Shown: positions 1-64,000 of the stretch, piece by piece
How the letters are laid out: each line of letters opens with the position of its first letter
Position numbering within the stretch: the stretch's first letter is position 1
Assembly: GCA_017506865.1 (NCBI GenBank)
Contig: JAFCMP010000099.1
Location: 124,001-188,000, forward strand
DNA length: 64,000 nt
Source of the DNA: Tribonema minus
Taxonomy: Eukaryota > Sar > Xanthophyceae > Tribonematales > Tribonemataceae
Reading direction: 5' to 3'
Program-made: the position numbers and the translations under genes
The notes under the pieces: model-generated
Told to the model about the DNA's origin: nothing
The model's database searches: none
Seen by the model: only the letters and a program-made list of their open reading frames with translations

Positions 1-815
1 CAGCTCAAACTGAGCAATGCAATATTTTGTGCGCCCCTGCAGCCGCCGCGTCGCGCCCGGCGAGGATGCGCCGCACGTGGGCGGCGTCGCGTGCGCCTAC
101 CTCCATTACTGCGCGGAGCACACGCCGGCCGGCGTCTACCGCATCAGCACGGGGCACCTGGTCAACATCTGGGCCCTGCAGCGCATACGCACCGACCTGG
201 ATAACGTGAGGCCTCGCGCAGTGTTCATTTCGCTATGTAGGCCTGTTCCGTAGCGACACGGTCGGTTCACGGTCGGTTATGCTCGGTACAACAAACGCCT
301 CACTTGAACATGAAGTTAGCATCAGCACGGGGCACCTCGTCAACATCTGGGCGATGCAGCGCATCCGCAGCGACCTCGACAACGTAAGTTCCGTGCGCAG
401 TATTCATTTCGCCCCATGTGGCGTACTTGATGTTAATGCGTTGCAGCGCATTGGCACCGACCTCGACAATGTGAGGCCTCGCGCGGTATCCATTTTGCTA
501 TGTGGCCTGTTCCATAGGGTCACAGTCGGTCCACGGTCGGTTACGCTCAGTTCAAGAAACGCCTCACTTCAACATGCAGTTGGCATTGGCATGTCGCACT
601 TAAAGTCCACGCACTGCAGCGCGTTCGTACCGACATCGACAATGTGAGGCCTCAGGTGGCATTCATTTCATGAGCCTGGCCTGCTCCGTAGTGGCTCGGG
701 TCTGTTTGCTTGGTTGGACACAACGCCTTACTTCAACATGAGGTTAGCATCGGCAGCAAGGGGCACCTGGTTGACGTGCGCGCGCTACAGCGCATGCGCA
801 CCAACCTTGACAATG
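1..815 (+). repeat. Tandem copies of an exon 3' end with its donor site
   Basis: The end of the first exon (…CTGCAGCGCATACGCACC… up to AAC|GTGAGG at 205) recurs downstream inside the intron. Further junctions lie at 383 (AAC|GTAAGT), 470, 643 and 814 (AAT|GTGAG). The copies also share flanking intronic sequence, with spacing near 175 bp for most steps and one half-step. The first copy is contiguous with the complete exon, so it is taken as the functional one. Confidence 0.8.
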
Positions 816-3800
816 TGAGACCTCGTACGCAGTGTTCATTTCGCTAGCGGAGACAGTGGCGCGGCGGCGTGTGGGTGCGCGCAGAGTTTGCTGTTCTGTG
901 CACTGGACCCTAGCAGCACGCTGCCTGGTCCTTCCCGCGTTCGCCGTCGCGTGCGCCGCGCGCGCGGGCAACTTCCCTCGTGTGTGCTCTCCCCCTTTGC
1001 CCCCCCCCCACCGTGCACAGTGACCTCACGTTCATTGCCGCGCGCAGCCCTGCTGAGTTGCAGAAAGCTTGCTGATTTGAAGTCCAATGCGTAGCAGACT
1101 CGAATGCCGCAGGAGGCCTCCTGGAGCCAGCTGCTTCGCACAATACTTCATGTTGCCACAAGCGTCAACCATCGCCTTCACAGACGCCAAGCGAAGCAAG
1201 CAATTGCTCCTTGAAGTTGAAGTGTCTGGGTTCCGCTCACGCGCGCTGGCGGCGCAGCAGGCACTTGTGAACACATGGTCGTTGACACTGTGTGCATGAC
1301 CACGCCTGAGCCTCGGGGGCGTACTCGCCGAGATGCGACGTGTCCGCTCCAACACTCAGCAGGCACATCGCCGAATGCGCCTTCACCGCTGCTGTTGTGA
1401 CAGCGCAGAGTCTTGGCCGTTGCTGCCCGCACCGCAGCTTGCGAAGGCGTGCGCGCGCACTCGCGCGGAGCCTCCTTGCGTTTTAGCAGTCCCTCGTCGC
1501 AACAGCAGGGCCCAGCTCGCATTCGTCTCTGCGCGCTGCGTGCGCGCACTGCTCCCCTTACTTAGGGTTACGTTAGAGTTAGAGTGAAGGTGAGCCTTTA
1601 TGCTCGCCCCTCGCCCCCTACACATAGCGGGCTCGCACTGATTGCGACGTGTCCCTCGCTCCCTCGACGCAGGCGCGCCTAGTGTGAGGTTAGGGTTAGC
1701 GTGAGGTTAGGATGAGGGTCAGGTTTCATGCTCGCCCCTCGCTCCACACTCATAGTGGCCTCACATTCGTTGCTGCGCACTCGTGCACACAAATTCGCCT
1801 CCCGCTCCCCCGGTGCAGGCGCGGCTGCTGGCGGACTCTTCGAAGCGGCGCGAGCGCAGGAAGGGGCAGCGCGCGGAGGCCGTGGAGCGTCACTACAACG
1901 CGTGCCTCGACCACTTATTTGTGAGTGTGCATTGTGTATATGCATAGCATATGCTGACCATTATTTATGAGTGGACGGTGTGCGTATGCGTGTGCATCGC
2001 GCATTTGCGGTACTTTTGAGTAATCTGGATAAACATACCAACTTGAAGTTTACCTTGAAGTTTGAAGAGGCCGTGGAGCGTCACTTCAATGCCTGCCTCG
2101 GCCACTTATGTACTTGAGTGCGCGCTGTGCATATGCCGGCCGCTTATTCGTGAGTGCGCCATGTGCGTACGCATGCGTGTGCACGGGGGGGGGGGGGGGG
2201 GGGGGGACGAGGACGTGTGAGTAGTCTGGAGCTTGGAAGCATCACAGCGTTCACAACGCTGTATGCGCCTTTGCGGCCTCCAATGCACTTTGCATGTCTG
2301 CTGCGGCTACCATCCATCGTGCAACTTCATCGCCAACACGAGCAGCCTGCCGATCGCGCGCCTTGCGAGATGCGCGCTGGAGCAAAGTCGGTGCGTCGCC
2401 GCTTGCGCTTGCCGCCGAGCTCATAACTCCAAGACCTCAGGCTCTCCTGAGAATGTGGTCACAGGGCCGAAAGCCTGCAAGAGATGTCGACACAAGCTGT
2501 CTCGTGATTCGCTGCGACTGCAGGAGCGCACGCGCGCGCGCATCGCGGCCATGCGCGCCATCCAATCACCCGAGGAGGATGCGCAGCAGGCGGACGGTTC
2601 CGCGGATCATTCAGCGGACGCCTCTGCAGCGCGCACACCAGGCGATGTTGCAGTGGACCTCTCCGCTGCCGCCGCTGCTGCTGCCGCTGCCGCCGCCGCC
2701 GCCGCTGCCGCGCCCAGCGGAGCCACCGCCTCGTCCGACACGCCAGATGCCTCCGTGCGTGATGTTGTGGACAAAGGGGCGGATGAAGGCGCCGCTGCGG
2801 CGGTGCCGCATGACGCGGTGTCAGCTGCGCAGCGCGGCGCCCCTGCAGCTGCCGCAGCTGCAGCGTCCAACACTGACGCGGCCGTGCCGGCCGCAGCTGC
2901 GGCGGAGGCGCCTGCGGCTGCAGCAGAGTCCACGTCTCCAGTGCCGACAGCAGCAGCAGCGGCGGATTCGGCGGAGCCAATGGACGTGTCAGCACCAGTG
3001 GCGGAACCATCAGCAGCGGCAGAGGAGCCGGCGCCCGCGGCAGTGGCGGAGACCGCAGCGGCGGCAGCGGCAGAGGCAGCAGCGACCGCGGTCGCAGCGG
3101 CTGCAGACGCGCTGGGAGCGCCTGGTGTGGTGGCCGCCTTTCCTGCGGCTGCGGCGGCAGCAGCGGCGAGATCTGCAGCAGCGGGAGACACTGCAGAGGC
3201 AGCTGCGCAAGTGATGCTCAGTGCTGCTGCCGATGCTGGCGCGATGGAGACTGCGTCAGATGCTGCGGTCCCCGCTGCAGCAGCGGCGGCGGCGGCGGCG
3301 CAGGCTGTCGCAGCCGTGCTGCCGGCAGCAGATGAGCGGACGGCCGCGCGCGCTGCAGCAGCAGGTGTGGCTGCAGCGGCGGCAGCGCAGCAGCAGCGCG
3401 CAGCAGCTGCGCCAGCAGCGCCTGCGGCGGCAGCTGAAATGCCGACGGAGGCAATGGCGGCTGCACTGGCGGAGGAAGCAGCAACGCTGGTGGGCGCAGC
3501 GGCAGCGCCAGAGAAGGCGGCGGCATCGCCAGCGGAGGCGGAAGCGGCGGCGGCAGCGACGATGGAAGCTGCTGCTGCGCCGGCGCAGGCAGGGGTTGCG
3601 GCGGCCGATGAGGCGGCAGCGCCTACGGAAGCAGCGCCGCCTGCAGCAGACCCGGCGGCGGCGGCAGTGGCGTCGACTGGCAAGCCTGCGGCAGCGCGCT
3701 CGTCATTTGAGGCGGACATAGCGTCGCTTCTGGCGGGCAGGATGTCGGCGGGCGGCGCGCCTGAGACGAAGCCGGCACCGGCTGCTGCAGCTGCTGTTAA

Positions 3801-18400: not shown

Positions 18401-21400
18401 ACATGTGCAGAACGTGCTGGGCAGCCTGCAAGCACACTGCACCACCCCGCTGTTGGTGCTTTCATCAACTGCACACAGCAATCATGCGCTTCTTGCAGCG
18501 TGTGCTCCTGTGCTCCTTGCGCAGCGCCGCTCTGAAAGAAGTGCCAGCGGTGCCAGCGCCTCCTGTGAAGTCGTACACCCTTCTCAAACCCTCTACGCAT
18601 GGCGCCGCCATCATCCCCTGCGCACTCTTCGCCCTAACACACGCCTTCCGTTCTGCGCGGCTGCCACCGCAGGATGCGCCGCCGTCTCTCGTCAGCGAAT
18701 CGGACACATACGACGACGACGGCGATGCCAGCGACGCCAGCTCCGCAAATGGCGCGCAGCAACTGACATGCTCACGCGGCGGTGCTGCTGCCGCCGCCGC
18801 TGCCCCAGCCACCCCCCCGCTGCGCACCCCTCAGCGCGCTGCGGCCTCGCTCACACGCGCCGCACGCGGCAGCGGCGGCGGCGGCGGCGCTGCTGGCGCT
18901 GCCGCCAGCGCAGTATCTGGCTTCAAGAAGGGGTTTCTGGCTGGCGGTGGTGGGCGGCGCACTTCTGCTGCGCCCGCTGACACTGCTGTCAGCGGCGGCA
19001 CGACGAACGGCGCGGCAGCAGCGGCGTCGCCGCCGCGACAGCTCGCGCCGGCGACGGCAGCGCCGTCAACGCAGAGCAAGAACCCACCTGCTGCGTCACC
19101 AGCAGCGGCGCGGCGGCAGCAGCCGCAGCAGCGTGCGCCTGCCGCACCAGTGGCGCCAGAACCGATGCCCGCCAAGCCTAGCAACGCCGGCGGCAGCAGC
19201 AGCGGCAGAGTTGGCAGGACGCAGCGGCCCAGCAACGGCGGCGGTCTCAGCATTACTGCTGCTGGTGGCATCGGCAGCAGGCGTGCAGGCGGCAAGTCAC
19301 GGCAGGAGGATGAAGAGCTGCCTCCGCTGCTCGTCTCGAGCTCGGAAAAGGATTCAGACTCGGACTCCGACGCGAAGGCGCGTGCGCGGAAGCTGCGGCG
19401 GCAGCAGCCGCAGCGCCAGCAGCAGGGCTTGGCGCCGGAGACGCCGCCGCGCGCCGCCGCGGCAGGCGCGGCGGACGCAGCGTCGGTGCCGTCTGCGCCC
19501 GAGCGCGTCCGCCGGCAGCAGCAGCAGCAGCAGCGCATCCGGACGGCGTCGCCCGCGCGCGCCGCCATCGGCGACGCGCAGCGCCTGCTGAACCTGACGC
19601 GCGACGCGCAGCGCCTCGCCGCGCAGGACGCTGCGCAGGATCTGCGCGATGCGCACCCGCGCAGCCGCAGCGTCGGCGCCACGCCGGCGGCGGCGCCGGC
19701 ATCAGCAGCGGTGGCGCCGCGGCGCAAGCCGTCAAAGTCGGCATCGCCGGTGCCGCCTGCGCCAGCGGCAGCGGCGGCGCCAGTGCGGCCGACACCAGCA
19801 CCCGCAGCAGCGCGGCGCTCCCCGTCAATGTCAACATCGCCGGTGCCGGCCGCGCCGGCAGCGGCGGCGGCAGCAGCAGCGGCGGAGATGCCGCCTTCGC
19901 CTGCGGCGGTGGCGCGCCGAAGGGAGCGGGGGGGGGGCGCGCGGGCACGGACCGGAGACAGCGACGGTGGCAGTGACAGCGATGAATCGCACTCCCCTAT
20001 CCGCAAGGCGCGCGCAGCACCAGCGTCGCCTGCTGCTGCGGAGCCGGCGGCAGCGGCGGCGCCGCGCCCCAGCGGCCGCGGCGACGGGCCCGATCTCAGC
20101 GAGTGGGGTGTTGCTGTTGCGGTTGGCGGCGGCGGTTCGCGCAAGCGGCGGCAGAAGCGCGGGGGGAAGGGGGCGCGGCGCGGAGGGGGGGGCAGGGGCG
20201 GCGGCGGCGGCGGCGGCGGCGGCAGGAATGCGGATCGCCACGCGGGCTGGTATGGGAGCGACGAGGAAGCGGGGCCGGACACTTCGGGGGCGACGATCCT
20301 GATGTGCGATCACGTCGTGGAGACGCGGATCTGCGTGGACGCGGCAAATGACTTCGCAGACAGGGACCACGAGCACTGCCCCGTGAGTCGGTCGGCCGCG
20401 CCAAAAAACTCCATAGCGCATGCAGACTTGAGAATCCTGAACCTGTTCTGTAAGCTGCGGTACATCTGCAAGATCAATTGCGGAGTTGAAACGAGTCCCG
20501 CTTGCTTATGCTCATCCCCCCCCCCCTCCCCCCCCCCTCGCTTGCGCGTCTTCCAGAGGCGGGCCCTTAGCTCCCCTTTGCCCAAAACCCCCCGCCTCTC
20601 CCCCCTGGTATCCCCTCACCCGGCAAGATGGACTGGTCTGACGGGGGGTCTTGCTCCCCTTCGCTCAACCCCACCCCCCCCCCCCCCCCCCTCATAATCT
20701 CCCCAGATCTGCAAGACGGACTGGGCGGAGCTCGTGGGGCGCCTCGCCGTCGTCCTGCAGTGCCGCCACGCCGCGTGCCTGGAGTGCCTGACGTGCCAGT
20801 GGCGCGCATCGCGCGAGGCGCTCGACTCGGGCGAGGAGGACGACGGCACGCGCATGCGCTTCCGCTGCGCGCAGTGCCGCGCGCCGCTGTCGCGCCAGCT
20901 GCCAGGCAACCTGGCGAAGGAGCTGCTGCGCACGGGGGGGCTCACGGGGGGGCTCACGATGCTGGCGAGCAGGTGAGAGAGGAGGAGGGGGGGGGGAAAG
21001 AGTGGTCTCTTTGTGCAGTAGTAGCATAAGAAGATGAGGTTGACGCGCGCGTGGCGCCACGTGTGCTTGAGCCGGTATTGCATCGGGAAAGCTGCTGCGC
21101 ACGGGGGGGCTCACGGGGGGGCTCACGATGCTGGCGAGCAGGTGAGAGGGGGGGGGGGGAAGGGGGGGGGGGGCGCCTTCGTTCATAGCCATGTGAGAAG
21201 ATGAATTGGTGGTAAGCACGCGTGCGCTTTTCCTGCGCGTGGCACCAGGGGTGCCTCAGCCGGCAATGCGTCGGGAGCGCTGCTGCACGGGGGGGGGGCT
21301 CACGGGGGGTGTTTGCGATGCTGGCGAGCACGTGAGGGGGGGGAGGGGGGGAGCAGCAGTCGACGCCTCGCGCGTACATGGTGGAAAAGAGAAGGAGGGC

Positions 21401-28830: not shown

Positions 28831-28874
<44 letters not shown>

Positions 28875-43800: not shown

Positions 43801-46800
43801 CCAGACTCAAAAGCAACCTGCATCACCGCTTCCCCATGTTACGGCAACTTCAATCACTAGGTCCAACCATCCAAGCGCGCATGCTGCGCATCATTCCGTT
43901 GGTGATGCACTGCACCTCTCTCGCGTGCACGCAAGCATGCTTATTGAAAGTGAGGGATTGGGCTTCAGGAACAGTTTAGGGTTTGAACCCTGAGCCAGAC
44001 TCAAGAGCAGCCTGCAGCACAAGTCCCCATGCTACAGCAACTTCATTCAAAAGCTTCAAACCTTCAAGCATGCGTGCTACGTGGTAATTCCGATCGCGCT
44101 CGCGCATGTGCGCGGGCACAACACTCATTCCCATGCTGCTGCGGATCACTTGAAGCGCAAGTCCAAACTTCAGGTGCATTCCCGCACTATGCCTCGATCG
44201 CACCAGGCGTGCACGGCTCAGCGTTGGTGCGTCGCGTGCGACGACCCGTTCTGCATGCACGTCAGCGATCTACATGCCACGAACTTCGCCACAACCGTTC
44301 TCAACAATCTCAACAAAACTCCTTCTTCACCGCAAAGGCACGGTAGTGGGCGATGCCCGAACCTTCACCATTCTCAGACCTCAAATATTTCAAGTGCAAA
44401 AGGTAGTACACATTCTTATCTGTTGGTGCCGCGCGCCTCAATTGCACGCAACACCTGTTCCCATGCTGCTACGAATGACTTCAAGCGCGATGTCTAAACT
44501 TTGCGCACGCATGCACAGACGTGCGCGGCTCAGCGCTGGTGCGTTGCGTGCGACGACCCGTTCTGCATGGAGTGCTGGGGCCGTGCGCACGCGCGCGGGC
44601 GGCGCGCCGCACACCCCTTCTGTGCCATCGCCCCCGACGGAACGGTCTGCGCGCGCGCCATCGTCGCCGCACCCAGCGGCGACGGTCCAGGTGCGTTGGC
44701 TTTTTTTGCCTGAAGTGGTGAGTCACCACAACGCACTGTGTGACCGCCTTGAGAGCGCTTCTGAGAGTGACTCACGAGTCCTGGATGTTAGTGTTTCAGG
44801 TGCGTCGGAGTGCGAGGTGGAGGTACACGACTTGTCTGTGAGGACCCGCGAGCGCTTTCAACGTTGCCTCGCGAGTCTTGGACTTTGCAGCAGTGGATGT
44901 GCTTTACAGTAGGGTTTTTACTGGCAACGCGCTGCGCTGCCGCTCTGCACCACATTAATCTGCGCCATCGCCCCCGACGGAACCGTCTGCGCGCGCGCCA
45001 TCGTTGCCGCGCCCGGCGGCGACAGCCCAGGTGCGTCGCTTCTCTGCTTGAAGTGGTGACTCAGTACTTGAAGTTATATGACCCAACTCAGCAGTGCGCA
45101 TGGAAGTCCCATATGCGGAAGCTTATATGATAGGAGGTTCGAGCAAGGGATGGCCATGGCTGCTTGTGAGCGGCTTGAGAGTGCCGAGAGTGCCTCCTGG
45201 ATCGATAGCACTAGTAGATGTGGTTGTCAGGTGTTCAAGTGGCGACATGCCGCGCTACCACTCTGTACCCTACTACTTCCAGGCTCAATGCAATGGTCTG
45301 CTAGCAAGGCAGGCTGGCTTGACCATGTATTGTGGCAGTTCAGATAGGTATTTTCTGGATGGCTCTTGACAATCAGGCATACCATTAAAACTCATGAGGC
45401 ACTGCTGCTGTCCACCCAGCACATGCCAATCAAGGCATTGGCGATGCAATGAGTGACAACGCGCCACTTCAAACCATCGCAGCAACTGGCAGCCCGAAAG
45501 TGAAGTTTGACCCATCAGCGCAGCTGGCGTCAAACACCCCCCCCAACCAATGCCCTTACGTCACACTCAGCCCCCCCACGCCCCGCACCCACCACCCTCG
45601 CGTACCCTCCGCAGCGCCCCCGTCGCCACTACAGCTGGCGCAGCTACAGCAGCAGCAGGCTGCCGCAGCTGGTGGCAGCGCGGCTGCTGCTGCCGCGGCG
45701 CCGTCGTCGCTGGCGGTTGTCGCGCAGCAGCAGTATGGCTGGTCACAGCACGCGGACGACGGCGGCGTGCCGTACTGGTACAACGCCGCCACGGGCGTCA
45801 GCACGTACGAGGTACGCGTTGCTGAGCAATGCTGCTAGCGATGTTAATTGCCCTATTATTGCTGCTTTTCCCGCTCCGCTGCTCCGTGCTTGAAGTTCTA
45901 TTGGGGTGCGCGCGGCGCTGAGCAGTGCTGCCAGCGACGTTGGCTGCCCTATGGTTGCTGCGCTGCGTCGTCGTCGCCTCGGCGTGCGGCGGCGTGAGGC
46001 GCTTAAAGTTGTATTGAGGCGCGCGTGGCGCTGAGCAATGCTGCCAGCGATATTGGTCGTCCTATTGCTGCTGCTTTTCCCGCTCTGCGCTGCATCATGG
46101 CGTTGAAGTGCGTCGTGAGGTGCTTGAAGTTCTGTTCAGCTAGCGGAGTGCCTGCTGCAGCGAAGAAGGTGCGGCGGGCACGCAATGTAGCCATCCCACA
46201 GAGCATGCACACGCTGAGCATCTGCTGCTGACGATGCACTCGCGCACACCTGCGCGCACGTACAGCGAAAACTCGGGAGTACCGTGCGTAAAGTATGTTG
46301 CTTGTCACGGCAAGCAGCCCGCGATCACCCAGCACCTTTACTGAGCGCCAACTTGTGCACATGCATGAAAACGGTAGACTCGCGTGCTCGGGTGCGGTGG
46401 CGATCACGAATGCGATGAATGCCTCATGTTTGTGTATGCGTTGCTGCGCGTGCCAGGACGCTGCGGGCGCCGAGGCAGCGCTCAGCCAGCCCCTCCACAA
46501 AAAGGGCACTTGAACTAAGAGTGATACTTCAAAATACGCTTTTTTGCAGCCCTAGTTGTGCATTATGTTTTTGTATGTGCTGCTGCGCGCGCCAGGACCC
46601 TGCGGGCGCCGGGGCAGCGTTCAGCCAGCCCCTCCACAAAAAGGGCACTTGAACTAAGAGTTAAACTTCAAAACGCTTTTTGCAACCCTAGTTACGCATT
46701 ATGTTTGTGTATGTGCTGCTGCACGCGCCAGGACCCTGCGGGCGCTGAGGCAGCGCTCAGCCAGCCCCTCCAGCCCCTGTGGACGGTGTTCCAGGACAAC

Positions 46801-49683: not shown

Positions 49684-49947
49684 ATGGCAATCAGCTGCTG
49701 TTTGAAAATGACTGGGAAGCGCGACTGGCCCGAGCTTATCGGTCAGAGCGCCGACGCCGCAAAAGAGACCATCCTGAGGGAGCTGAAGGCGGAGGGCTGC
49801 GCTGACGCGACCGTTGTGATAAGGGATGCAATGTCTGATGACCCAGACGCCCCCGTTCCCACGCCGCGCATGTACAACCCCCAGCTAATCTGGGCGTTCT
49901 GCAACCCGGACACCAGCAAGTTTGTGAAGGCCGTGAGGTTTGGCTGA
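49684..49947 (+). CDS. Potato inhibitor I family serine protease inhibitor
   Basis: This is a single-exon ORF of 87 residues; a second Met at position 9 (49708) would give 79. It matches the potato inhibitor I fold from end to end: the signature DWPELIGQSADAAKETIL, a central strand (DATVVIRD), the binding loop (DAPVPTPRMYNPQLIWAF), and the closing CNPDTSKFVKAVRFG, which parallels the eglin C ending. Aligning the conserved Phe and the C-terminal Gly places Arg of PTPR at P1 and Met at P1', so trypsin-like targets are predicted. The Arg pair that braces the loop in barley CI-2 and eglin is missing (positions taken by Leu and Trp), so inhibition strength is uncertain. There is no clear signal peptide, so cytosolic action is likely. 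The family usually has 60-90 residues. Confidence 0.83.
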   Translation: MAISCCLKMTGKRDWPELIGQSADAAKETILRELKAEGCADATVVIRDAMSDDPDAPVPTPRMYNPQLIWAFCNPDTSKFVKAVRFG

Positions 49948-51782: not shown

Positions 51783-54700
51783 TCACGCGGCGAGCGCCGC
51801 CGCCGCGGCGCCGGGCTTGCGCGCCGTGATCAGCGCGCAGCGCAGCGCCCCGCGGCGCGCGAGCCACGCCAGCGCCGCGCCGAGCAGCCTGTACGGCAGC
51901 CAGCGCAGGCGCAGCGCCCACGAGCGGCGCGCAGCGCCGCCGGCGCAGCAGCGGCGGCGGGCACCGCCGCCGCCGTTGCTGGCGCTGTCGCCACCACCGT
52001 CAGGGCTGCATTTGCTGCTGCTGCTGCTGCTGGGGCTGCGGCACTGGCAGCCGCTGCAGCGCGCGGCCGTGAACGCTGCAAAGCCAAACAAAGTGTCGGC
52101 TGTGATGTCGGTGGCGGAGGCGCCGCTGAAGCCGGCACGCGCGAGCTGTCCCAGCACCTGCGTGAAGGCAGCAGGCGCAGAGCGGATTACGTGAGCGGCT
52201 CTGAATGTCAAACAGGTTGGCGCACAAACCAGTCCGTGTCTTAAGGGGGATATGCTTCCGTGGCGGCACTACGGGCTTCCTCGCAAAGCCCCCTTCGATA
52301 GAGTCGTGACATGAAGCAGACCTCAGTCTGGTCAACTCAACTCCTACGCGTGCATTGGCGGCGCAGCAAATGCTACTGCGTGTGAACGGACCGCAGCATC
52401 TCACCTGGTCAACCCCCGCGCGTGCGTTGGCGGCTGGGATGCGACACGCGTAGCGCAACGCTGACTGTGCGGCGCTCAAAAGAAAACCGTGTCCGCGGCA
52501 CCACAGCCCCATCCCCCGTTTGCTGGGCGCGAGCGAGGGAAGCAGGAGGTCGATAATGGCCAGCCGACCCCCCGGCTGCAGAGGCGGAAGTTGAGCATGT
52601 GGATGAAAACTGTCAACTCAGCACATCATGTGAGGGGAACTGTTGAATTGACATCTACAGAGGATGGCACGCTTCGGATATCTGGACATGATCACTCAAG
52701 AGCCATGCCCCCCGGATCGCTGGGGGCAAGCAAGGGGAGCAGGGGGTCGATGATGGCCGGCCGACCCCCGGGCTGCGGAAGCAGAAGTTGAGCAAAAACG
52801 TGAATGGAACTGTCAATTGAGCAAATGATGTGTGTGAAAATGTTGTAAAATCAGCAGAGCATGACGCACTGCGGAGCACTCAACAAAATTACTCAACAGC
52901 CTTGCCCGGCTTTGCTGGGGACAATTGAGGGGGAACAGGAGGTCGATGATGGCCGGCCGACCCCCAGGCTTCAGGGGCGGAAGTTGAGCAACAGACGCAA
53001 ATGAGACTGTCAATTTGAGCGAGTGATGTGAGTGCAAGGGCTGATTAACAGAGGATGACGCACTGCGGAGCACTAGATGAAATAACTCAACGGCCTTGCC
53101 CCCGGTTTGCTGGGGGCAAGCGAGGGGGGGAGGAGGTCAACGGCGGCCGGCCAATCGCCGGGGCCAAACGAGCAGACAATGTGAGTTGTACTGTCAATGC
53201 ACACAAGAATGGCACACTAATGTTTGAATCCTTGTGACAACACTGCCCGGAATACTAAAGGCATGTGGGGAGATAGCCCTGAGGGTTTCGTTGACAACAA
53301 CCAATGGACCCCAGGGCTACAGAGGAAGCACGTGAGCAAAAGCCGTCAGTGGCGATGACTAGACGCAAAGAATGCGGCCGTTCACTTTCAAGTACGTCAA
53401 ATGCTGTGACTGCAGTGGTGTTTAACCAAGTTCAATCGAATTGGGCTAGCTCCGTGTGTAGAGTAATGTCTGCTTGTAATGCAACCAGCGCCCTTGGCAT
53501 ACCTCTGCTGACAGTGACAGTGCAGGATGTGAACCGCAAAGCGCAGCATCAACTGCATGCCGTGGGTGAACGCTCCTCAAACCAGCAGCCACAGCAAATT
53601 TGTAATAAACGCAAGGCAGTGCACCCCACCACTTCCCCAAAGAGGCCACTGATTCGAGGGCTTCAGTATGGTAACAGCTCCATGTGACATGCCATGGAGT
53701 AGTGTTCCTCAGCGCAGGGTCTCACTGTTCAACAAAAAGTTCTCGTCAACGGCTGATGCCAGAAGTACGTCACATGTGTGTAGTCATCTCGACTGCTGTT
53801 GCAGTGGCAGCCGCAGCCGCAGCAGAACAGTGGCAGCCGCAGCCGCAGCAGAAGCACTAGCAGCGGCAGCAGCAGCCACAGCCGCGGCAGCAGCAGCAGC
53901 CGCAGCAGCAGCAGCCGCAGCAGCACTAGCAGCAGCAGCATCTGCTGCAGCAGCACTAGCAGCACCTAGCAGCAGCAGCAACAGCAGCAGCGCTCACCTT
54001 GAGCACGCGGTTCGCCTCCGCAAAGAACGCGCCGCGCGATGCAAAGTGATACACAGCGTCCACCGACACTACTGCCGTGAAGGCGCCGTCCGCGTGCGGC
54101 AGCGCCGTGCTGCAGCCCTGCCGCACGTCTGCGGCAGCGGCGACGGCGTCGGCGTCGTCGTCTGCCGCTGCGGCGAGGCGCGCGCGGGCCAGCTCCGCCT
54201 GCGTGGCGTTGCGATACTGCCATGTCAGCCCTTAAAACCTGAAGAGGGTCTGTATGCATATTATGTACGCAAACTGACACAAACCGACTGAATTCAGCCA
54301 TGCTCAGCGCTAACAACGCGACCATGCTCAACAATGACACACAATAAAACAGCATAAGGCAAAGCCGACTTCCTGACAGGGCAGTTGCAGTCAGCGACAC
54401 TGCACATCTCGGGATCGGTGACGACGCTTGCTTGGCGACAGATGCGGTGACCATGGTAGCAGCGGTGGCGTCGGCGTCGCTGTCAACTGCTGCTGCTGCC
54501 GTTGCTGCCGCGCGAAACGCAAGCGCGTTAGCTCCAGCCGTGCAGCCCGGCAGAGCGCACAACTGCTCATTTGATGTGACGGGTCAGCGACCACTACCAG
54601 GGAAAAACAACAGCGTCACGGCGCCTAAACTCCAACAAAAGAATGGCTTCAAAAATTGGACCTGTACGCCACATGCAAAACCATTTGTGTTCACCTGTGA

Positions 54701-57700
54701 AGGCACCGCCTCAATCGCTAAACATGTCACTGTTGCAGAAGCGCTGGTATTAAATCACCATCACGCGATCATCTTCGATACTTTTCTTGAACAGAATCGT
54801 TTCATGCAGTGTGCTTGTCATCACCACTCTCAAAGGAACCGTGCGAGCATTCATGCATGTGTGATCTTCATCACCACTCTCAAAGGATCTGTGCGTTCAT
54901 TGATGCGTGGTGGTCTTCATCACCACTCAACCTCTTGAGTCACCTGCGAAGGCACCGCCTCGATCATCACGCCGCCGCGCACGGCGAAGCGCTGGCGCCA
55001 CGTCAGCAGCGAGTCTGTTGCGCACGCAAAAGCGCTGGCATCACGTCACCAGCACGCGATCCTCTTCTTCATTTCTTTCTGAATAGAGATAATTCATGCG
55101 TGTGTGGTCTTCAGCACCACTCTATCACCTGCGAAGGCACCGCCTCAATCGCCGCGACGCTGCGCACGCCGAAGCGCTGGCGCCACGTCAGCAGCGAGTC
55201 GCCCGCGCCGCAGCCGACGTCGAGGATGCGGTCGGCGGGCGACAGCGCGACGGCGTCGCCCGCGAGAGATGCCAGCTGCTCGCACGCCTGCGATGCGGGG
55301 AGCACTTCCGAGGTGAGGGGGCGGTACAGCACCGAAGTGCGCATACATGGGCAGGGTTGATGAAAATGGACAGTGCATTAACAGGGGGGGGGAGGGGGGG
55401 GGCGGCGTCCTGACAGACGTGCCTCGAACTGAACAGAAACGGATCGACAGTCACATGCACCGCAGCCAACGTCGACGACGCGATCGGCAGAGGACAGCGC
55501 AATGGCGTCGCCAGCGAGCGACGCCAGCTGCTCGCACGCCTGCGATGCCGCATGACGCAGATTCAATTCGAAGTGAGGGGGCAGTACAGCTCCGGACTGC
55601 GCATACATGGGCAGATTTTGATGAACATGGACAGTGCCATGGAAATGGGGGGTGGGGGGGGGGGAGCGGGGGGGGAGCAGCGCAACGGCGTCGCCTGCGA
55701 GCAAGCCCAGCAGCTCGCAGGCCTGAAGCGCAGTGGCGACGTTGCATGGCACAGGCGGTCAGCTACTAGAGCCTTGTGGGATTTGACAACAGGTGCCGTG
55801 CTCTCTCGCGAGTCTTCCACCGCTCCAGTCTCAAAGGCACATGGTACTGGTGATGTGGCTTTGCAATCGGCGCCTGCTACCACTGACAAAACTGATTGAG
55901 TCTATGGCTGTGGGGGGAGTCAAGAGCTGTGCCCAGGCATGTTTGTAGCACACTTTTGTGCCCCCTGCATCACCAGCTGTAAGACGGCGTCACAGTCATT
56001 TCCGGATGTGCCGCAAGCCTGATAGGTCCAAATATGTCATGGCAAGGGGCCCAATTCATTATCGTCGTGCTGGACAATGGCGCAACCGAGCGCGTGCATA
56101 ACAATCCTGGCACGGTAATCTCACAATGACTTTCACCTCCCTCAAGTGTGTAGAGAACAAATGTGTGTAGAGAACAAATCCGAAACGGTCACTGGAGTTT
56201 TTTTCGTGCCCCTCAAATGTAGGGCACTGTGAAACGCAGCATGAACGCTTCCTCAAAAGACTCTGGGCGCTTGCTGGAGTGGTCGCCCCGGTACCCTGTG
56301 CGCACCAAAGCCCCCACATCGCCCTTTGTGACACCGCAGTCACCCCTACCTGGGGGTGGGTAGGCACGTACCTGGGGATAGGTAGGCATGGCGCCGCTGC
56401 GCAGCGGCCGCCACAGGCCCCAGTTCATCCACAGCGTGCGGCCGGCGGCATCTGCAACGTGGCCCGCGCACTCAGCGCTGCCGCCGCCGCCGCAGCGCGG
56501 CGCCTCCCCCTTCCCCCCTGCATATTTGCGGGGGGCGGCGGCGCTGCCGTCGCGGCCTGCGCAGAGCGCAAAAGACGCGCAGCGCTCAGCAGCAATGCGG
56601 TGGTATGTATGCTTGGAGCATTGGCGGAGTGCGCAGTGTGCCGCTCGTAGGGTCGGCGCGTTCAGTAATGTGAAACTCGTTGCGGGCAAGAGGTGCATTG
56701 CCCGCCCAGCGCCGCACGTTTGCTGCCCTGTTTGCGGCAGCAGGCGCGGTATTATGGGGCCGCGCGCCGCACGAGCACAAGGAGCAAGTGCTTTGGCGCC
56801 TAGACCCCATTCTTCAAGGTGCACGCCCTTCCAGAAGTGGCCTCGCCGCCACATCTGCTGATGCTGCTTTGCGATAGTGTGATGCTCTTCCTGATCGACG
56901 CGACAAGCCGTGCTACAGGTGTGCGTCTCACACAGGCTGTTGATGGATCGCATCGTACTCGCCGCGAGTTGCTAACATGTAATGCGCACGCTCAGCCGGC
57001 GTCACGCAGTCGCCGCACCAGACCGCAGGCGCGTTGCCGCCGCAGCAGCAGCGCTCCTGCCCACTGCCGACGCCAGCAGCAGACCAACATTCGTCCTGAA
57101 CAAGCTCACCTTCGCTGCGCAACGCTGTGTCGCGCCCCACCGGCTCTGCGCACTGCGGCCGCACACCGCAAGCGCAGCCGCCCCGCGACGCATGGCCGTT
57201 GAGCAGTGCACGTGCCGACATGCCGCTGCTGCCACTGCTGCTGCCGCCGCTGCCGCAATTGTACAGAGGAGTCATGCCGCGGGCGGCGGTGGCGGCGGCG
57301 GCGCGCGCCGCCGCGGCGGTGAAGTGGGCTGCCCACGGCGCGCGGACGCCCAGCGCATCCGCCACCTGCGCCGAGCACAGCAGCGGCGAATGAGGAGCAG
57401 GAATGATGCTTCAGATCAAAGTAGTGCACATCACCGGTTGGCAGATACTGGGTCGTGCGACGGCTGGAACACTGTGGCTCACAGCGACCGCATGTGGTTC
57501 AGGCGCTCGCGCCGGGCAGCCTGGGGGTTAGACGTAGGGTTAGGGTTAGGCGGTGAAGTGGACACCCAGCGCGTCCGGCACCTGCGCCGCGCGCAGCAGC
57601 ATAGCAGCGGCGAGTGAGCAGCAGGAATTATGCTTTGAACGAAAGAAGGCAATTGCAAGTAGGCAAATGAGCAGCGGGAACTATGCTTCGGTTGATGGGA

Positions 57701-60700
57701 GTGCAAATCGCCCGGCTGTAATGCCCTTCTAAGTGTTGACGGTCATATGCAGACAATGGGTCATGCGACGACTGGAACGCTGCGGCGAGGAGCGCCGCTC
57801 ACAACGCCAACACGGCGTTCAGGCGCCTGCGTCGCGCAGCCAACATGTCTGCTCTTGACAGCTCTGGATTGGCACGAGGACGCCAAGGAGAAGGTATGAG
57901 CCGGGTGCTCCTCCTCTGTACACCCCAGATGGTGCAAATAATACTGTCCATCACTCAGAAATGTGAGGCCGAACCTTACAGCAGTGAGTCGATCGTATCA
58001 CTCCGCAGCACCCTGACAACATGCAGCACACAAAGCGAGCTCCTTTCGTTTTGTTTGAGGCCGGACCTAACAAGTGGCGAGTCAGTTATACCTCTTCGCA
58101 GCACTTCAACATGAAGCCAAGGCACAAGCGCCTACTTTTCTCACCGCCACGACGCTGCGCACGCCCTGCTCCTGCAGCCTGAGGTGGTGCGTCAGTGTGC
58201 ACCGAGGACCAATTTCAACATGCGCCGCGCCCTCACTCAGACATTTGCACCACCTTAAAATGTTGACTGGAGTGGATCCAAGGAGAAGGTATGAGCCGGG
58301 CATATCACCACTTCGCAACACTTCAACATGAAGTACACCAAATATCACGTAACTCTCACCGCCACAGCGGCGAGTCAACTGCCTGACTGCGCAGCGCCTC
58401 AACACCACGTACACCAAAGAAGTTGCTGTCAATTCTCACCGCGACCACGCTGCGCACGCCCTGCTCCTGCAGCAACGCCTTGAACAGTGGCTGGAGTGAA
58501 ACCAGAGGAAAGGTACGAGCCGGGTGCTCGTCATCTGCGCACCAAACCATGTCCCTTCTCTCGTCTCACCGCCACCGCGCTGCGCACGCCCTGCTCCTGC
58601 AGCGGCACCTGGTCCAGCGCGTACGCGCCCACGAACCACACGGCGCCGGTTCTCCTCCTCTGTGCGCCTCTAGACAGTGCAAATAACACTGTCTAGCAAT
58701 CGGAAATCTGAGACCACTTGACAGGGCCGAGTCGAGAGCCTCACTTCGCAACACCTCAATACCAAGTACATCAAAGCGAGCGCCTGCGCTTCTCACCTCG
58801 GACCTAACAGCGGCCGCGAACCAAACAGCGGTCGCAAACCTAACAGCGGCGAGTCAACTGCCTCACTGCGCAACGCCTCAACACTACGTACACCAAAGAG
58901 GTTGCTGTCGATGCTCACCGCGACGGCGCTGCGCACGCCCTGCTCCTGCAGCGGCACCTGGTCCAGCGCGTACGCGCCCACGAACCACACGCCGCCGCGC
59001 CCCTGGCACGCGTGGAGCGCTGCCACGGCGGCGCGCGTGCGCAGCGTGACGACGGAGCGGCTGTAGCGGATGCGCCGTATCGTCTCCGCGGGTTGCGCGT
59101 CTGCATGGCAGGAGTGTGGAAGAGCGGAACAGTGGCACAGTGAGCTTGAGATCCATGCTTCGCAGTGATGGCAGTGATTCGGAGCGGCGTTGATACTGCC
59201 GGCGGGCATGAAGAGGCTGTAGCGGATGCGCCATATCATCTCCGTGAGCTGCGCGTCTGCACATGCGGAGCGTCGGAACAGTGGCTGAGTGAGTTTAAAA
59301 CTCCATGCTTCGGAGTAATGGCGGTGGGACGGAGCTACTTGGGAATCGCCGCACGCAGCGTCGCACGCAGAGCGCGCATGCGCATGTCCAGCATGACGAC
59401 GGAGCTGGGCTGTGACAAGCGCGTCGTATCGTGTGCGCAAGCTGTGCGTCAGCACGGCGAGCACGCCGCCGCGGTCACGCTGAGAGGCAGAGCTAGCAAG
59501 CGGCTCAGCCTGGGGCGGCGAGGTGCAGTGCACACACCACATGGAGCCGATGCCGTTTTCTGCGCACTTGTGCCGATACCTGATGATTTCTGGTCCAACC
59601 TCGTGCACACCAAACAGGGTACAAGCTCTTGAGGACCGACTCAGGCTGGCCCGCTGCGCGGGGCTCAAGCGCAGGCGCGCGTCAACCATCCTGCCGCTGT
59701 TGGGCACGCCCCCACAACAATACAAAGCACAAGCGAGCATTCTCACGCCACTGAGGTGAACTCTCCCAGAAATGTCACCTCCACAACAGCAGCGCAGACC
59801 GTGCTGAAGAGACGTCAACGCTTTGCGGGCAGCTCAGGGAATCCTGCTCGCACGCTCCTCCGCCTCCGGCACGCTCTCAGCAGCCCGCGCTTGACCAACG
59901 CTCCGAAGCGCACATTATCTGTCCGCATCAGCGGTGCGCTCTTAGAAGCGCGCTTGACCAATGCTCCGAAGCACACGCCATCCGAGCAAAAGCGCGCTTG
60001 ACCAGTGCTCCGAAGCGCACATCATCTGTGTCCGCGCCAGCGACACGCTCTCAAAAACGCGCTTGACCAGCGCTCCGCAGCACACACCCTCCGAGCAAAA
60101 GCGCGCTAGACCAACGCTCCCAAAGCGCACAGCATCTGTCCGTGCCAGCGGTGCGCTCTCGCCAGCGCGCTTGACCAGCCTCAGCACACACCCTCTGAGC
60201 TCCTGCGCTTCCGGTGCGCTCTCAAGAACCGCGTGCGGCCAGCGCTCTGCGCAGCGACCACCCTCTGAGCACTGACGCGCACCTGGCGGCGGGTTCCAGG
60301 TCACATCCATACAGAAACGCAAACCAAGTTCTTAAAAGAGATGTGAAATCAACGCTTTGTGGGCAGCTCGGAGGATCCTGCTGACGCGTCCCTGCGCTGC
60401 CAGAGCGCCCTAAATAAGCGTGCTTCACCCAGCGCTCCAACCCAAGCACACACCCTCTGAGCGCTGACACAAATGGCGCACCTGGCGGCGGGTTCCAGGA
60501 CTGGTACACGACGGCGCCGGGCCTGGAGGGGTCCGGCAGCAGAAGCGTCGCCGTGCAGCGGCGCGCGCCGGCGTGCGTGACGAAGTTGATGCTGTTGACG
60601 TCGCGCGCGTCGCGCGGCAGCAGCGCGCCGCCGCCGCCGCCGCCGCGCGCGTCGCGGTGCACGACGACCTCGCTCTCCTCGTACGCGAACGCGGACAGCG

Positions 60701-63496
60701 CCGCCGCCTGCCGCGCGGGTGACACATTTGGCGGCATTTGGCGGCAATGGGTGGCACATCAGGCTGCGAAAGGAGGGCCAGTGTCGCTGCGGTGAGGGCT
60801 GTCGCACGCGCGGGGCGCGGGCGGGGGCGGCGGTGGCGCGCATGCGGCGGGGCGCGGTGGTGGTGTCGCGATGAGGAGCGCTGCGCAGCGCGGCGCGCAC
60901 ACGAGCATGTGCGGAGGTGGGGCGATGCATTTGAGCCGAGCACTTCGCACACACTTCAACAGGCAATGACCCTCGCAAAAGTGCCACACCTCCACACTTC
61001 AACATGCAATGGCCCTCCAAGAATGCTTGCATTCTCACCTCCTCGAGGCTCGCGCCGCGCAGGGCGCCTTTGAGCCAAGCGCCTTAAACACTTCGACAGA
61101 CAATAGCCCTCGAAAGACGCAGCGCGCTTCAGACTTCAACGAGCAACGATGGCCTTCAAATAAAGGCCCGTCTCACCTCCTCGGAGCTCGCGCGAGGCAG
61201 GGCGCCAAGCGCGGAGTGCGCCGGCGTCGCCATCACCACGTGGTCAAACTCCTCCTCTTCCTCTGCCTCGTCTTCGTTTCCCCCCTCGTACTTCCCATCC
61301 CCCGCCCCCGCCCACCCATCAGCCCCGCTGCCGCTGCCGCTGTCGCCGCCTCCCTCTGTGACACGCAGCCGCCGCCGCCAGAGCACGCGCGGGCTCGCGC
61401 CGCCGCCGCCAATGCCGGCGCCGCCGTGGAGCACTGCTGTTACAGTCGCGCCGAGCTCTACGCGACGCGCCGCCTGTTTCCCGATGCACATAGGTGTTTA
61501 CAACAAATAGAAAGTGATTGCTTATTGCGGCGGCGCGACGCTGCACGCGCCGCAACGGTGGCTGGATTCAGGCGGGGTCGTACGGACGACGCGGGAAAAA
61601 ACATGAAGATCTGTGGATGACCGCAAGCTGATGCACCAATCCTGCCGCCTCAGTCAGGAACATGCCTGTGTAGCTCTGACGACCAGCTCACATGAGCCAA
61701 TGAAGCCTGCCATCAAAGCGCCAGCCATGATCGGCAGCACTCGCGGCCTCGCTCCAGCTGACGCTCGGACCCGGTGTGGGGGTGGGGTCAGGGACAGGGT
61801 TAGCTCGGCCTGAAGCTACCAATGGGGGGTGGGGTCAGGGACAGGGGTTAGCTCAGCCTTAGCCTACCAGTGGGGGGTAGGTCAAGCCCACCGGTGGGGG
61901 GTAGGTCAGGGACAGGGGTTAGCTGAGCATTAGCCTCAGCCTACCAGCGAGAGCTCTGCTGCGGTTGCGTGCCTCGCGTTGTTGGCCTGTGCCAGTTGAA
62001 AACTTCAAGTGATGGCTCTCTACTGCTGCTTCTTGAGCCTCTACGCAAAAACTTCACATTCTATTCCATACGCGCGTTCCCCTTAGCTCCACCTTACTGC
62101 AACGAGGCAGCCGGACTGTGACCGCCGCCATGACCGCTCTGCGTTGCGGGGCGTGACTGCGCTATGCGACCTCGAAACTGATGAAGAGATTAGCAGAGGC
62201 GATTGCGACATCTCAGTCGACATGCGGCGGTGATGCGCCGGCAGGAACATCGCCCGTTATGTGCAGTGTGCATATGGCTCTGATGCCTGCGGCCGCGATG
62301 GCTGCGCATGCACTGGCGTGTTGCTGATTAAAAAAAATTCTCAAAGGCGATGCGGCATCGCAGTCAAATTGCGGCGGCGATGCTCCGGCATGAACATTGC
62401 CCACTATACGCAGTGCATACGGCTTCAATGCCTGCGGCTGCGATGGTCGCATTACACTGGCGTCTTGCCGATGTGATGATAAACAGACTCTTGAAAATGG
62501 ATCGTATGACTGACAACATCAAATGGCTCAGCGGTTCAAAGGAACTGTGTGTATTGTGACTATGAGCCGCAGTCGGAAGAGAGGGCTCGAATCCCTCCTG
62601 CGCTCGATCTGCTGTTGCTGGTGAGACTCATATCACCACACCACGCATCCGACATGCACCAGTCCCGCCCCTTGCCTTGGCCAACATGCCCCAGCTTCGT
62701 GCATTACAACTTCATGCACGTTGATACATGAGGTGGGTCTGCATCCACAATAACACTGATATGCATTCACCTGGCCAGGCGTACACATGTGAAAAGCCTA
62801 AAAACTTTAAACTACGAAATTCTGCCTGAACATGAGATTCTGCCACTTTAGACACTATGAGGTTCTGCCACTTGACTTGGCCACCCGCTTCGACGCGGTC
62901 CAGTTAACGGCGTGGTACTGGTCATGAGATTCTGCCACTTTAGACATTATGATATGCCAGGTTCTGCCACTTGACTTGGCCACCCGCTTCGACGCAGTCC
63001 AGTTAACGGCGTGGTACTGGTCATTTAAGCCTGCCTAGATGACCACATGAGAGATTCTGCCGCTTCATACTTCTTGATTTGTGAAATTCTGCCACTTGCC
63101 TTGGCCAACCGTTGCAATGCGTCCCACCCGCCGGCGGCGGCATGTTACTGGTCGTCACATGAGCCTGCCTAGATGTACATACGGGGCAAGCCTACATTTC
63201 TGATAATGCGTAAAAATCTTCCACTTGCCGTGGCCAACCGCTTCGACGTGTCCCAACTACCGCTGACGGCGTGGTACTGGTCATATGAGCCTCTCTACAT
63301 GTACACATGAGATTCTGCCACTGTATACTTCTTGATTTGCAAAATTCTGCCACTTGCCTTGGCCAACCGCCTTGATGCATCCCAGCTACCGCCGGCGGCG
63401 TGGTACTGGTTGTCGCTGGCGGCGCGCAGCGAGTACGCCATGACAATGTCCATCGGGTACTCAAGCACTGCTGCAAAGCTGCACGTCAGGATCATG
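51783..63496 (-). CDS. FAD-dependent amine-oxidase-like / SAM methyltransferase fusion (N-terminus incomplete)
   Basis: Ten minus-strand exons join in phase, in 5' to 3' order: 63496-63358, 61473-61177, 60707-60482, 59100-58919, 57365-57110, 56556-56372, 55287-55141, 54216-53998, 52575-52405 and 52157-51783 (TGA). They give about 731 residues. The first ~280 are the C-terminal two-thirds of a flavin amine-oxidase-like protein of the type found beside or fused to cyclopropane-fatty-acid synthases: GGSWDASRRLAK, FDHVVMATPAHSAL, EVVVHRD, QSWNPPP, and the FAD-contacting GVWFVGAY…EQGVRSAVAVA. After an Ala-rich linker comes a class I methyltransferase. The first visible intron has a GC donor (AAG|GCAAGT). 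The N-terminal GxGxxG dinucleotide fold is not seen; it should lie to the right. Modification of a lipid acyl chain is the most likely role, by analogy only. Confidence 0.86.
52490..53170 (-). repeat. Four ~195-bp tandem copies of an acceptor and exon start (minus strand)
   Basis: On the minus strand, the exon start CCGGGGGGTCGGCTGGCC after CTGCAG (boundary 52575) has upstream copies with boundaries near 52772, 52968 and 53160, periods 197, 196 and 192 bp. Each copy keeps the GACCTCCTG(C)TTCCC-like continuation and the plus-strand TTTGCTGGGGGCAAGCGAGG stretch. Only the 52575 copy continues as open frame in the right phase. A donor-side copy of the same exon lies at 52318-52345. Confidence 0.92.
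53801..53997. repeat. Imperfect CAG/CTG trinucleotide repeat at a donor site
   Basis: About 195 bp of CAGCAGCAG/GCCGCAGCA on plus (CTG-rich on the sense strand) begin directly at the donor of exon 54216-53998. It is intronic, although it would encode Ala or Gln runs in other frames. Confidence 0.9.
54690..55770 (-). repeat. Copies of both edges of the methyltransferase motif I exon
   Basis: The exon's donor end (plus CACCTGCGAAGGCACCGCCT, true at 55126-55145) recurs at about 54692 and 54943. Its acceptor start (plus GCCAGCTGCTCGCACGCCTG, true at 55271-55290) recurs at 55528-55547, with another decayed copy at about 55704-55730. A ~54-bp CATCACCACTCTCAAAGGA unit also repeats within 54817-54935. 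Confidence 0.85.
57330..57860 (-). repeat. Acceptor-side copies of exon 57365-57110
   Basis: Plus-strand GGCGGTGAAGTGG…CCCAGCGC(A/G)TCC…CACCTGCGCCG…GCAGCAGC…GGCGA occurs at about 57315-57390 (true) and 57550-57617. TACTGGGTCGTGCGACGGCTGGAAC at 57447 and CAATGGGTCATGCGACGACTGGAAC at 57754 are further repeats. Confidence 0.75.
58130..59110 (-). repeat. Four donor-side copies of the FAD GAY exon
   Basis: Plus-strand CTCACCGC(C/G)AC(G/C)(G/A)CGCTGCGCACGCCCTGCTCC begins at about 58139, 58436, 58565 and 58914. The last is the true donor and exon end; the 58565 copy matches for about 85 nt. All keep CTCAC (GTGAG on the sense strand). Acceptor-side copies of the same exon (plus GTAGCGGATGCGCC…CTCCG…TGCGCGTCTGCA) lie at 59063-59105 (true) and 59218-59262. 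Confidence 0.9.
59875..60300 (-). repeat. Intronic ~60-bp tandem array and exon-edge copy
   Basis: Plus-strand GCGCGCTTGACCA(A/G)(C/T)GCTCCGAAGC units repeat about six times between 59885 and 60190. At 60282-60298, CGCACCTGGCGGCGGGTTCC copies the donor and end of exon 60707-60482 (true at 60476-60498). Confidence 0.85.
61773..61950. repeat. Minisatellite
   Basis: About four units of ~50 bp share GGGGGGTAGGTCAGGGACAGGGGTTAGCT-like sequence (core GTCAGGGACAGG) in the intron between exons 61473 and 63358. Confidence 0.85.
62205..62490. repeat. ~140-bp tandem duplication
   Basis: GCGGCGGTGATGC…GGCAGGAACATCGCCC…TGATGCCTGCGGCCGCGATGG…ACTGGCGTGTTGC is repeated with divergence from about 62370 (GCGGCGGCGATGC…CTGCGGCTGCGATGG…ACTGGCGTCTTGC). 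No coding potential is recognised. Confidence 0.8.
62860..63410 (-). repeat. Five copies of the first visible fusion-gene exon edge
   Basis: On plus, CTGCCACTTG(C/A)CTTGGCCA(A/C)CCG…GGCGTGGTACTGGT recurs with CTTGG at about 62876, 62975, 63100, 63229 (as CGTGG) and 63358 (true). Later spacing is 125-129 bp. On the sense strand these are copies of the exon end and its GC-type donor. Confidence 0.88.
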
Positions 63497-64000
63497 CTGC
63501 GGCGGGGGGGGGGGGGGGGAGCGCGACGCGGGGCCTTGAGAGCAGCACTGGCCGACAATGTGGCTCACACAGGCACTGAGATGTGGTTTTGATGGTATGC
63601 TTTTGTTCACATAATTTGGAAGTATAGCCAACGTTACTAATATTTTTATCTGGTTGACGTCAAAAAAAAAAACAGTGCTTGAATGCAGGCTCCCAAGGTG
63701 CCACCCTGAAACCACAATCGGCTCACAATGTTCGCCCAGAGGTTGGGAGTGTCACTCATCACCCCTACGCAACACAGGAAGTGTAGTTCTGAAGGGCCTT
63801 GAGCCCTTTGACAAGCACCTCGCGAAGCGGTTTGTGCATTGCATCCGCCCTGCTTACATCAGCTGATGATCCGCTATACACAAGCAGGCGCGCTACAGAT
63901 GTTTTGCGTGGCAGCAGCCACAACGTCCGCCAAGAAACGACTAGGCAACCACGCAGTAGCGCTAGGCACCCGCCGACGCGTGTGGGCACGGCGTTCACAT
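63497..64000. other. Right edge of the window, upstream of the first visible fusion-gene exon
   Basis: A G tract at 63504-63519 forms the polypyrimidine tract (on minus) of the acceptor at 63497. Further right I cannot place an exon that joins with phase 2. Minus-strand open stretches near 63770-63998 have no recognisable FAD dinucleotide-binding motif. Confidence 0.4.

Follow-up and report, generated by a model that had tools for sequence, protein, structure and literature searches.

Passages of two studies on amphioxus (PMC3087553, PMC3902484) describe so-called mirages, tandem duplications of both 5' and 3' exon-intron boundaries in which the globin units measure approximately 150-160 bp, AG/GT is present in many units, reverse-transcription PCR is undisturbed and the units evolve in concert; the genes concerned are Adh3, the globins BflGb6 and BflGb9, TnC and PGBD5. 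Here, we analyze a 64,000-nucleotide (nt) stretch of the genome of the xanthophycean alga Tribonema minus (hereafter the window; G000:C99:124001-188000 in an assembly of 158.2 Mb and 554 contigs), in which an earlier note had reported that introns carry serial copies of the adjoining exon edge together with its splice site. We confirm that these arrays of edge copies are real, that they extend beyond the window and that they affect about half of the introns tested. The closest known structure is the amphioxus mirage minisatellite, a kind already known; what is new here is the frequency of the arrays, apparently the lineage in which they occur, and a measured decoupling between the exon-derived part of the copies and their intronic spacers.

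The likeness to mirages covers several features. Namely, the units are tandem, minisatellite-like and lie across the exon-intron boundary, donor and acceptor boundaries are both duplicated (here at 14/45 and 16/45, respectively), and many but not all units keep AG/GT (here 60/74 donor and 33/36 acceptor copies). As for concerted evolution, the exon parts are kept similar here and the nearest copy is the most similar one, with no conversion tract seen directly. The amphioxus passages deal with a handful of chordate genes, whereas here 23 of 45 homology-defined introns are involved; furthermore, the decoupled ageing of exon part and spacer was measured here, and the present arrays are known from the sequence of one assembly. 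Tandem-duplication intron gain, as treated in a passage of PMC4974935 (the AGGT model of Rogers, ATP2A1, the potato RdRp, 24-bp repeats in fission yeast), likewise involves duplication across an exon or boundary with splice signals in the copy, but a new intron is created there, whereas existing introns appear lengthened here. Finally, PMC2812944 describes 27 intron modifications in human genes of segmental duplications, where variable internal tandem repeats located at exon-intron boundaries are able to affect splicing; the repeats sit at boundaries in both cases, in recently duplicated genes there and in conserved genes here. Boundary arrays in an alga were reported in none of the titles and abstract beginnings listed from the open-licence literature, nor are such arrays reported in passages of PMC8226300, PMC10400597, PMC6823432 and PMC11228838.

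The DNA analyzed consists of the window plus 200 kb from nine contigs of the same genome, 40 kb of which flanks the window, and all results come from sequence comparison within this one assembly. The genome is GC-rich and has AACCCT-type interstitial repeats and many kinesin matches, a combination that a flagellate green alga could also show. Haematococcus, which came into consideration through its genome size, repeat content and AACCCT repeats (PMC7617258), gained no support from a search with a ketolase protein; no match was obtained, although such a negative carries little weight. Comparing one chaperonin exon with PDB structures was uninformative as to lineage. Across these nine places, 264 kb in total, a codon model called 161 coding segments. 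In addition, exon boundaries were fixed by homology in eight chaperonin loci found via PF00118 (part of the loci listed) and five of the kinesin loci found via PF00225. Chaperonin exons were joined according to their position in the hidden Markov model (HMM), their frame and the splice consensus. Some joins were mended manually, several boundaries were fixed or added manually in line with what is known of the family, and joins with oversized HMM gaps or no good join were skipped. The subunit names CCT1, CCT3 and CCT8 used below are our own reading of the translations and should be taken as presumptive. A copy was counted in the homology-fixed introns at a score of at least 40, the best shuffle reaching 37, and low-complexity queries were excluded from counts.

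In the homology-defined set, copies occur at 14/45 donors and 16/45 acceptors and in 23/45 introns, so that the claim of serial copies at nearly every boundary was overstated. The 31 chaperonin introns have copies at 9 donors and 8 acceptors (14 introns in all), and the 14 kinesin introns at 5 donors and 8 acceptors (9 introns); three kinesin joins are poor, and without them copies are found in 8/11 introns. The heterogeneity between genes is strong: with an exon query, 0/7 introns carry copies in chaperonin locus L025 (presumed CCT1) and 6/6 in L028 (presumed CCT8). At the extremes, one intron of 949 nt in the presumed CCT3 gene has eight donor-side matches, two of them near threshold, and one of 1283 nt in the presumed CCT8 gene has five acceptor-side copies. 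Chaperonin introns with copies are also longer, with a median of 876 nt vs 466 nt without (n=31, p=0.006). In the HMM tables, partial second matches appear in the expected order, for instance at C51:21979-22639, C5:352998-353558 and C511:561699-562092, as judged by eye, the opposite order not having been searched systematically. Outside this set, in L004 near position 1324 on the plus strand, an upstream gene whose translation looks PHD-finger-like by eye has one acceptor copied seven times within 1.05 kb.

The copies are specific to exon edges and directional. Among the codon-model segments, a significant copy of the last 50 nt of the exon is present within 1.2 kb on the downstream side in 56/143 cases and on the upstream side in 8/138. 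For the first 50 nt, the upstream side gives 43/140 and the downstream side 9/143, and exon middles give 9/93 upstream and 7/95 downstream (Fisher p from 1.8e-4 to 5e-12). The order that had been described, with donor-side copies following the true exon and acceptor-side copies preceding it, is seen in these 161 segments and in the homology-defined introns alike, and on both strands in the window. What is more, in a profile of 40-nt windows along donors, a downstream copy is found at 2/69 for position -120, 17/82 for -60, 38/87 for -20, 34/89 for 0 and 19/82 for +20, while reversed targets yield approximately no copies; segments with weak splice scores (84/179 without a donor above 3, 123/179 without an acceptor above 3) were excluded from this profile. 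Similarity across the putative donors is at its maximum at the boundary and falls on both sides, just as had been proposed. With queries limited to exon bases 11-38 nt from the edge, 43/95 donors have a total of 85 copies and 19/69 acceptors a total of 34; in each of the two groups, 14 copies lie in the wrong direction.

A comparison of repeats at boundaries with those elsewhere in introns had been put forward as a test, and repeats turn out not to be equally frequent away from edges. In chaperonin introns, repeat pairs fall into 21 donor, 19 acceptor and 17 interior ones, vs 9.3, 8.8 and 38.5 under random placement of the same pairs, pairs within one array not being independent; the 17/57 pairs away from edges are part of the picture as well. 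In the nine places, 35/53 repeat pairs with at least 88% identity touch an exon edge, vs 28% expected, and the poly-alanine stretch of the window was excluded, for its low complexity, only from the pair count by identity bin. Some of this excess would arise in any case, since copies derived from a constrained exon can be recognized for longer. Anchoring to coding edges in general, which we considered as an alternative, is disfavoured by the ends of coding regions at stop codons, where a copy is found in 1/17 automatic cases vs 31/81 donors (p=0.0096) and in 0/9 curated ones, several of the latter with less than 300 nt beyond the stop and some perhaps also in the automatic set. Since a duplication at a stop-codon edge should be equally silent, yet copies there are rare, this contrast suggests that the process has to do with introns or splice edges. 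At start codons, the corresponding values are 1/10 vs 14/53 acceptors (p=0.43), a sample too small to be informative.

Successive edges in an array are spaced by a median of 169 nt (interquartile range (IQR) 140-202, n=110), the units being mostly about 110-200 bp long. In exons of at least 140 nt, the exon overhang in a copy has a median of 51.5 nt on the donor side (62 copies) and 47 nt on the acceptor side (24 copies); it seldom exceeds about 80 nt, although a few copies reach 100-135 nt. With an overhang of about 50 nt, the copies differ from duplicated whole exons or mutually exclusive exons, which would comprise complete exons with both splice sites. The short overhang may mean that longer exon context makes a harmful competitor, or that breakpoints are biased. 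Beyond the edge, ungapped homology extends into the intron by a median of 10 nt at donors and 7 nt at acceptors. We also considered, and rejected, a paired motif at the two intron ends: TTGAAGT is found in 24/126 cases on the donor side (donor-side 250 nt, nine places plus the chaperonin loci) vs 7/87 on the acceptor side, and its complement in 10/126 and 10/87, respectively, the latter not clearly an enrichment at acceptors.

Are the copies put to use? One could imagine that they are decoy or alternative splice edges whose exon part is kept by selection, and the fact that the exon part and the splice consensus are better kept than the spacer would agree with this. That GT or AG is usually kept, as had been claimed, holds well, but the observed retention matches expectation without selection: GT is present in 60/74 donor copies, where 61.8 are expected from the copies' own mismatch rate, and AG in 33/36 acceptor copies, where 31.0 are expected (copies with an alignment ending more than 3 nt from the edge, 14/88 donor and 2/38 acceptor, are excluded). 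If the copies were used, an in-frame extension without stops would result from none of the 60 GT-bearing donor copies and from 6/33 of the acceptor copies with AG. The proposal that only the outermost copy, contiguous with the full exon, keeps the reading frame is borne out by 87/93 GT/AG-bearing copies and fails for those six acceptor copies. No clear preference for a frame is seen in how far the copies lie from the real edge (21/20/33 for remainders 0, 2 and 1, and 15/10/11 for remainders 0, 1 and 2), and 30/37 indels are not multiples of three. In 126 copies the mismatches to the real exon amount to 6.5/5.8/13.4% at codon positions 1/2/3, the pattern expected where the copy alone drifts while changes in the real exon fall at silent sites. 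On these grounds the copies look untranslated, and we find selection for function in them very unlikely. They do leave arrays of apparently unused GT/AG sites in introns, decoys in the sense of the earlier note.

Other origins for the repeats fare worse still. Some host genes may have repeated motifs (a gene at 29-38 kb of the window is IQ-like by eye, one tested exon having no Pfam match), and the copies could then be constitutive exons of repeat proteins. The identical pattern in chaperonin and kinesin genes speaks against this, as does the fact that the copies are mostly out of frame or interrupted by stops. Introner elements are dispersed families that, in some protists and algae, alter what introns contain on a large scale. 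The bulk change is a point of likeness; unlike introners, two arrays used as whole-genome queries match their own locus alone, in a DNA search that was not exhaustive. Errors of assembly are contradicted by the divergence of copies from the real edge, approximately 12% in the exon part and 40% in the spacer. Taken as one group, we regard these three possibilities as extremely improbable.

A further property of the arrays is the unequal ageing of the two parts of a unit. Between copies, the exon parts are 83.2% identical and the spacers 59.0%, unrelated flanks aligned likewise giving 48.3%; between the real edge and its copies, the values are 87.5% and 60.4%, respectively. The exon part is ahead of the spacer in 28/28 arrays with at least two copies. 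Across 110 copies, the similarity of the exon part is not correlated with that of the spacer (rho -0.02), and the exon part of the nearest copy is fresher than that of farther copies in 23 arrays and staler in 4, whereas the spacer has no such gradient. The simplest account would be plain serial tandem duplication followed by neutral decay, in which the edge would look special only because the real exon is constrained, its part of the unit thus diverging half as fast as the part derived from the intron. The codon-position pattern and the retention of GT/AG fit neutrality, spacer homology is above null in 58/110 copies, and in the presumed CCT3 gene alignments span several whole units. However, this account predicts equal copy-to-copy identity in both parts, where 83% and 59% are observed, and a nearest copy that is closer in the exon part alone is not among its expectations. 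Ageing alone was also modelled under the same detection rule and fails to reproduce the data: the simulated spacer score is about 20 of 36 with rho about 0.7 (observed 9.5 and about 0), about 8-9 with rho still about 0.7 if spacers age three times faster, and 3.4 with rho 0.54 if they age five times faster. Duplication and decay appear insufficient, because within the same copies the exon part and the spacer age out of step, and this reading, already disfavoured, strikes us as unlikely. In the claim that boundary-spanning duplication is the dominant mode of intron growth, what survives is the tandem, anchored nature of the copies and the greater length of the introns that have them; duplication with outward decay as the whole story is not supported.

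Exon and spacer could also be decoupled from the start if fragments of exon edges had been inserted separately, by templated insertion at breaks or from splicing intermediates, into spacers that were never related. Indeed, 33/110 copies lack spacer homology and are no different in exon similarity (29.7 vs 29.6), and the ungapped homology takes in only a short piece of intron, with medians of 10 nt at donors and 7 nt at acceptors. Set against this are the 58/110 copies whose spacers are homologous above null, the fairly regular spacing with its IQR of 140-202, and the alignments that run through several units. Such insertions are, in our estimate, quite unlikely to be the main source of the copies.

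The explanation we favour, and to which the pattern of similarities gives a little better than an even chance, is that these are mirage-type arrays whose exon part is renewed from the functional edge, either by conversion or by unequal exchange. In particular, an array would begin with a tandem duplication straddling a splice junction and would grow into minisatellite-like tandem units, as the spacing and the end-to-end alignment of units indicate. The duplication would remain silent for as long as splicing continued to use the site joined to the full exon, and therefore donor and acceptor edges could both gather copies and the intron would grow. Splicing would ignore the copies, to judge from the frames and from the protein domains, given that joined exons read through the chaperonin, kinesin and methyltransferase domains. 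Short-tract gene conversion, or else unequal exchange, would then repeatedly re-homogenize the exon-derived 50 nt or so and the splice consensus with the functional edge. Held by selection, the real edge would serve as template, while the spacers would drift apart. We infer this refreshing step because of the decoupled ageing and the distance gradient.

It should still be noted that several observations weigh against the explanation just given or against the data under it. First, copies in the wrong direction are not absent (8/138 and 9/143 in the edge test, 14 and 14 with restricted queries). When the query includes intron sequence, the first 17 chaperonin introns give p<1e-4 at 5 donors, 2 acceptors and 3/14 mid-intron windows, and L025 shows two weak matches, one of them to intron sequence alone. 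Exons outside the chaperonin and kinesin genes are codon-model calls rather than transcript-based. In addition, at least one array enters the counts twice, that of the 28 arrays included, the codon model having taken the copy at 58570-58629 for an exon. A search based on spacers finds 43 copies at 204 sites, and the 26 that include an exon part have values of 0.898 for the spacer and about 0.846 for the exon; consequently, the choice of query biases the contrast between exon and spacer, although not enough according to the simulation. The 33/110 copies without spacer homology also fit copies that never carried such homology. The third-position excess persists from copy to copy (15.8/13.6/21.4%), which is unexpected under pure non-coding decay unless the copies differ in their time of origin or mutation is biased towards GC-rich third positions. 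Finally, no conversion tract was seen directly.

Within the window, 19 of 31 manually chosen edges, distributed over both strands, have copies that exceed a threshold set by shuffling, and 12, including the donor at 61177, have none; some edges were chosen because a copy had already been seen, and three (near 208, 22136 and 22781) are misplaced by 1-3 nt. Clear sets of copies belong to the donor at 58919, the acceptor at 52575 and both edges of the exon at 55129-55287 on the minus strand, and to the donor at 20972, the acceptor at 30224 and the donor at 31198 on the plus strand. One of these arrays is found at the exon at 58919..59100, which we take to belong to a flavin-oxidase-like gene, although it has no Pfam match. 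Both of its edges are copied: the donor edge at 58570..58629 (58/60 identical), 58440..58473 (32/34) and 58145..58178 (32/34), all with GT kept, and the acceptor edge twice within 59212..59449, at 59212-59256 (39/45, AG) and 59389-59449 (47/57, AG lost). On the same strand, the edge at 60482 has a donor-side copy at 60283..60300 (18/18, GT kept), and the edge at 63358 has three within 62975..63281 (63231-63281, 63100-63156 and 62975-63021). The latter is a GC donor, AAG|GCAAGT, of whose copies one has GC, one has TC and one stops short of the edge; a second GC donor is found in chaperonin locus L030.

In an S-adenosylmethionine (SAM) methyltransferase gene, also on the minus strand, the joined exons match Methyltransf_11 across the splice joins, lending support there to the view that the outermost copies are the true edges; when the joined sequence was used in a protein search, no match was obtained at E<=1e-10. 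Both edges of exon b (55129..55287) are copied, the acceptor edge twice within 55480..55722 (55480-55539, 51/60, AG; 55667-55722, 45/55, AG) and the donor edge three times within 54695..55046 (54944-55003, 53/60, GT; 54695-54718, 23/24, GT; 55019-55046, 24/28). Exon d (52405..52575) has three acceptor-side copies of its edge at 52575 within 52719..53138 (52719-52772, 46/54, AG; 52911-52968, 48/56, AG; 53105-53138, 29/34).

The plus strand shows the same arrangement. Downstream of the exon at 20707..20972, which has weak RING-like matches under the Pfam cut-off, two donor-side copies lie within 21090..21330 (21090-21141, 52/52, GT; 21274-21330, 49/52). An Smr exon edge near 22780 has an acceptor-side copy at 22599..22654 (43/55), and the donor at 26188 has two copies within 26335..26588 (26335-26389, 48/55; 26541-26588, 45/48). 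Four acceptor-side copies of the edge at 30224 occupy 29451..30114, with AG kept in three; three donor-side copies of the edge at 30354 lie within 30397..30812, with GT in all, and five donor-side copies of the edge at 31198 within 31315..32199. Farther along are two acceptor-side copies of the edge at 37289 (37089..37211, each 22/23, AG), a donor-side copy of the edge at 42205 (42311..42337, 27/27), an acceptor-side copy of the edge at 44519 (44208..44257, 47/50), a donor-side copy of the edge at 44690 (44971..45030, 54/60, GT) and two acceptor-side copies of an edge at 46732 in a WW gene (46457..46636, 39/41 and 38/41, both AG). Interstitial telomere-like (TTAGGG)n/(CCCTAA)n tracts lie between coding segments at 32401-32496 and 42209-42393, and at 2221-10400 on the plus strand there are long, very alanine-rich open frames with AT-hook-like motifs by eye. 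Outside the window, long open frames in L007 (about 7650-9810, minus strand) resemble a copia-type reverse transcriptase and integrase by eye.

A wider reading, which we offer tentatively and hold to be rather less likely than not, is that selected splice edges may act as master templates throughout the genome. Short-tract conversion or unequal exchange with the functional edge would sustain the edge-anchored arrays, purifying selection on that edge would drive both concerted evolution and the growth of the intron beside it, and repeats that are not anchored would decay and die out. If about half of the introns in this alga are indeed partly built from copies of their own splice edges, they would constitute a natural experiment on intron growth. 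They would also offer a test bed for how the spliceosome chooses among near-identical sites, true and decoy sites sharing their local exon context. Boundary minisatellites, known from a few lancelet genes, would thereby be shown to be capable of enlarging introns on a wide scale in a lineage far removed, and one could then test directly whether intronic repeats are kept up by conversion from an exon under constraint.

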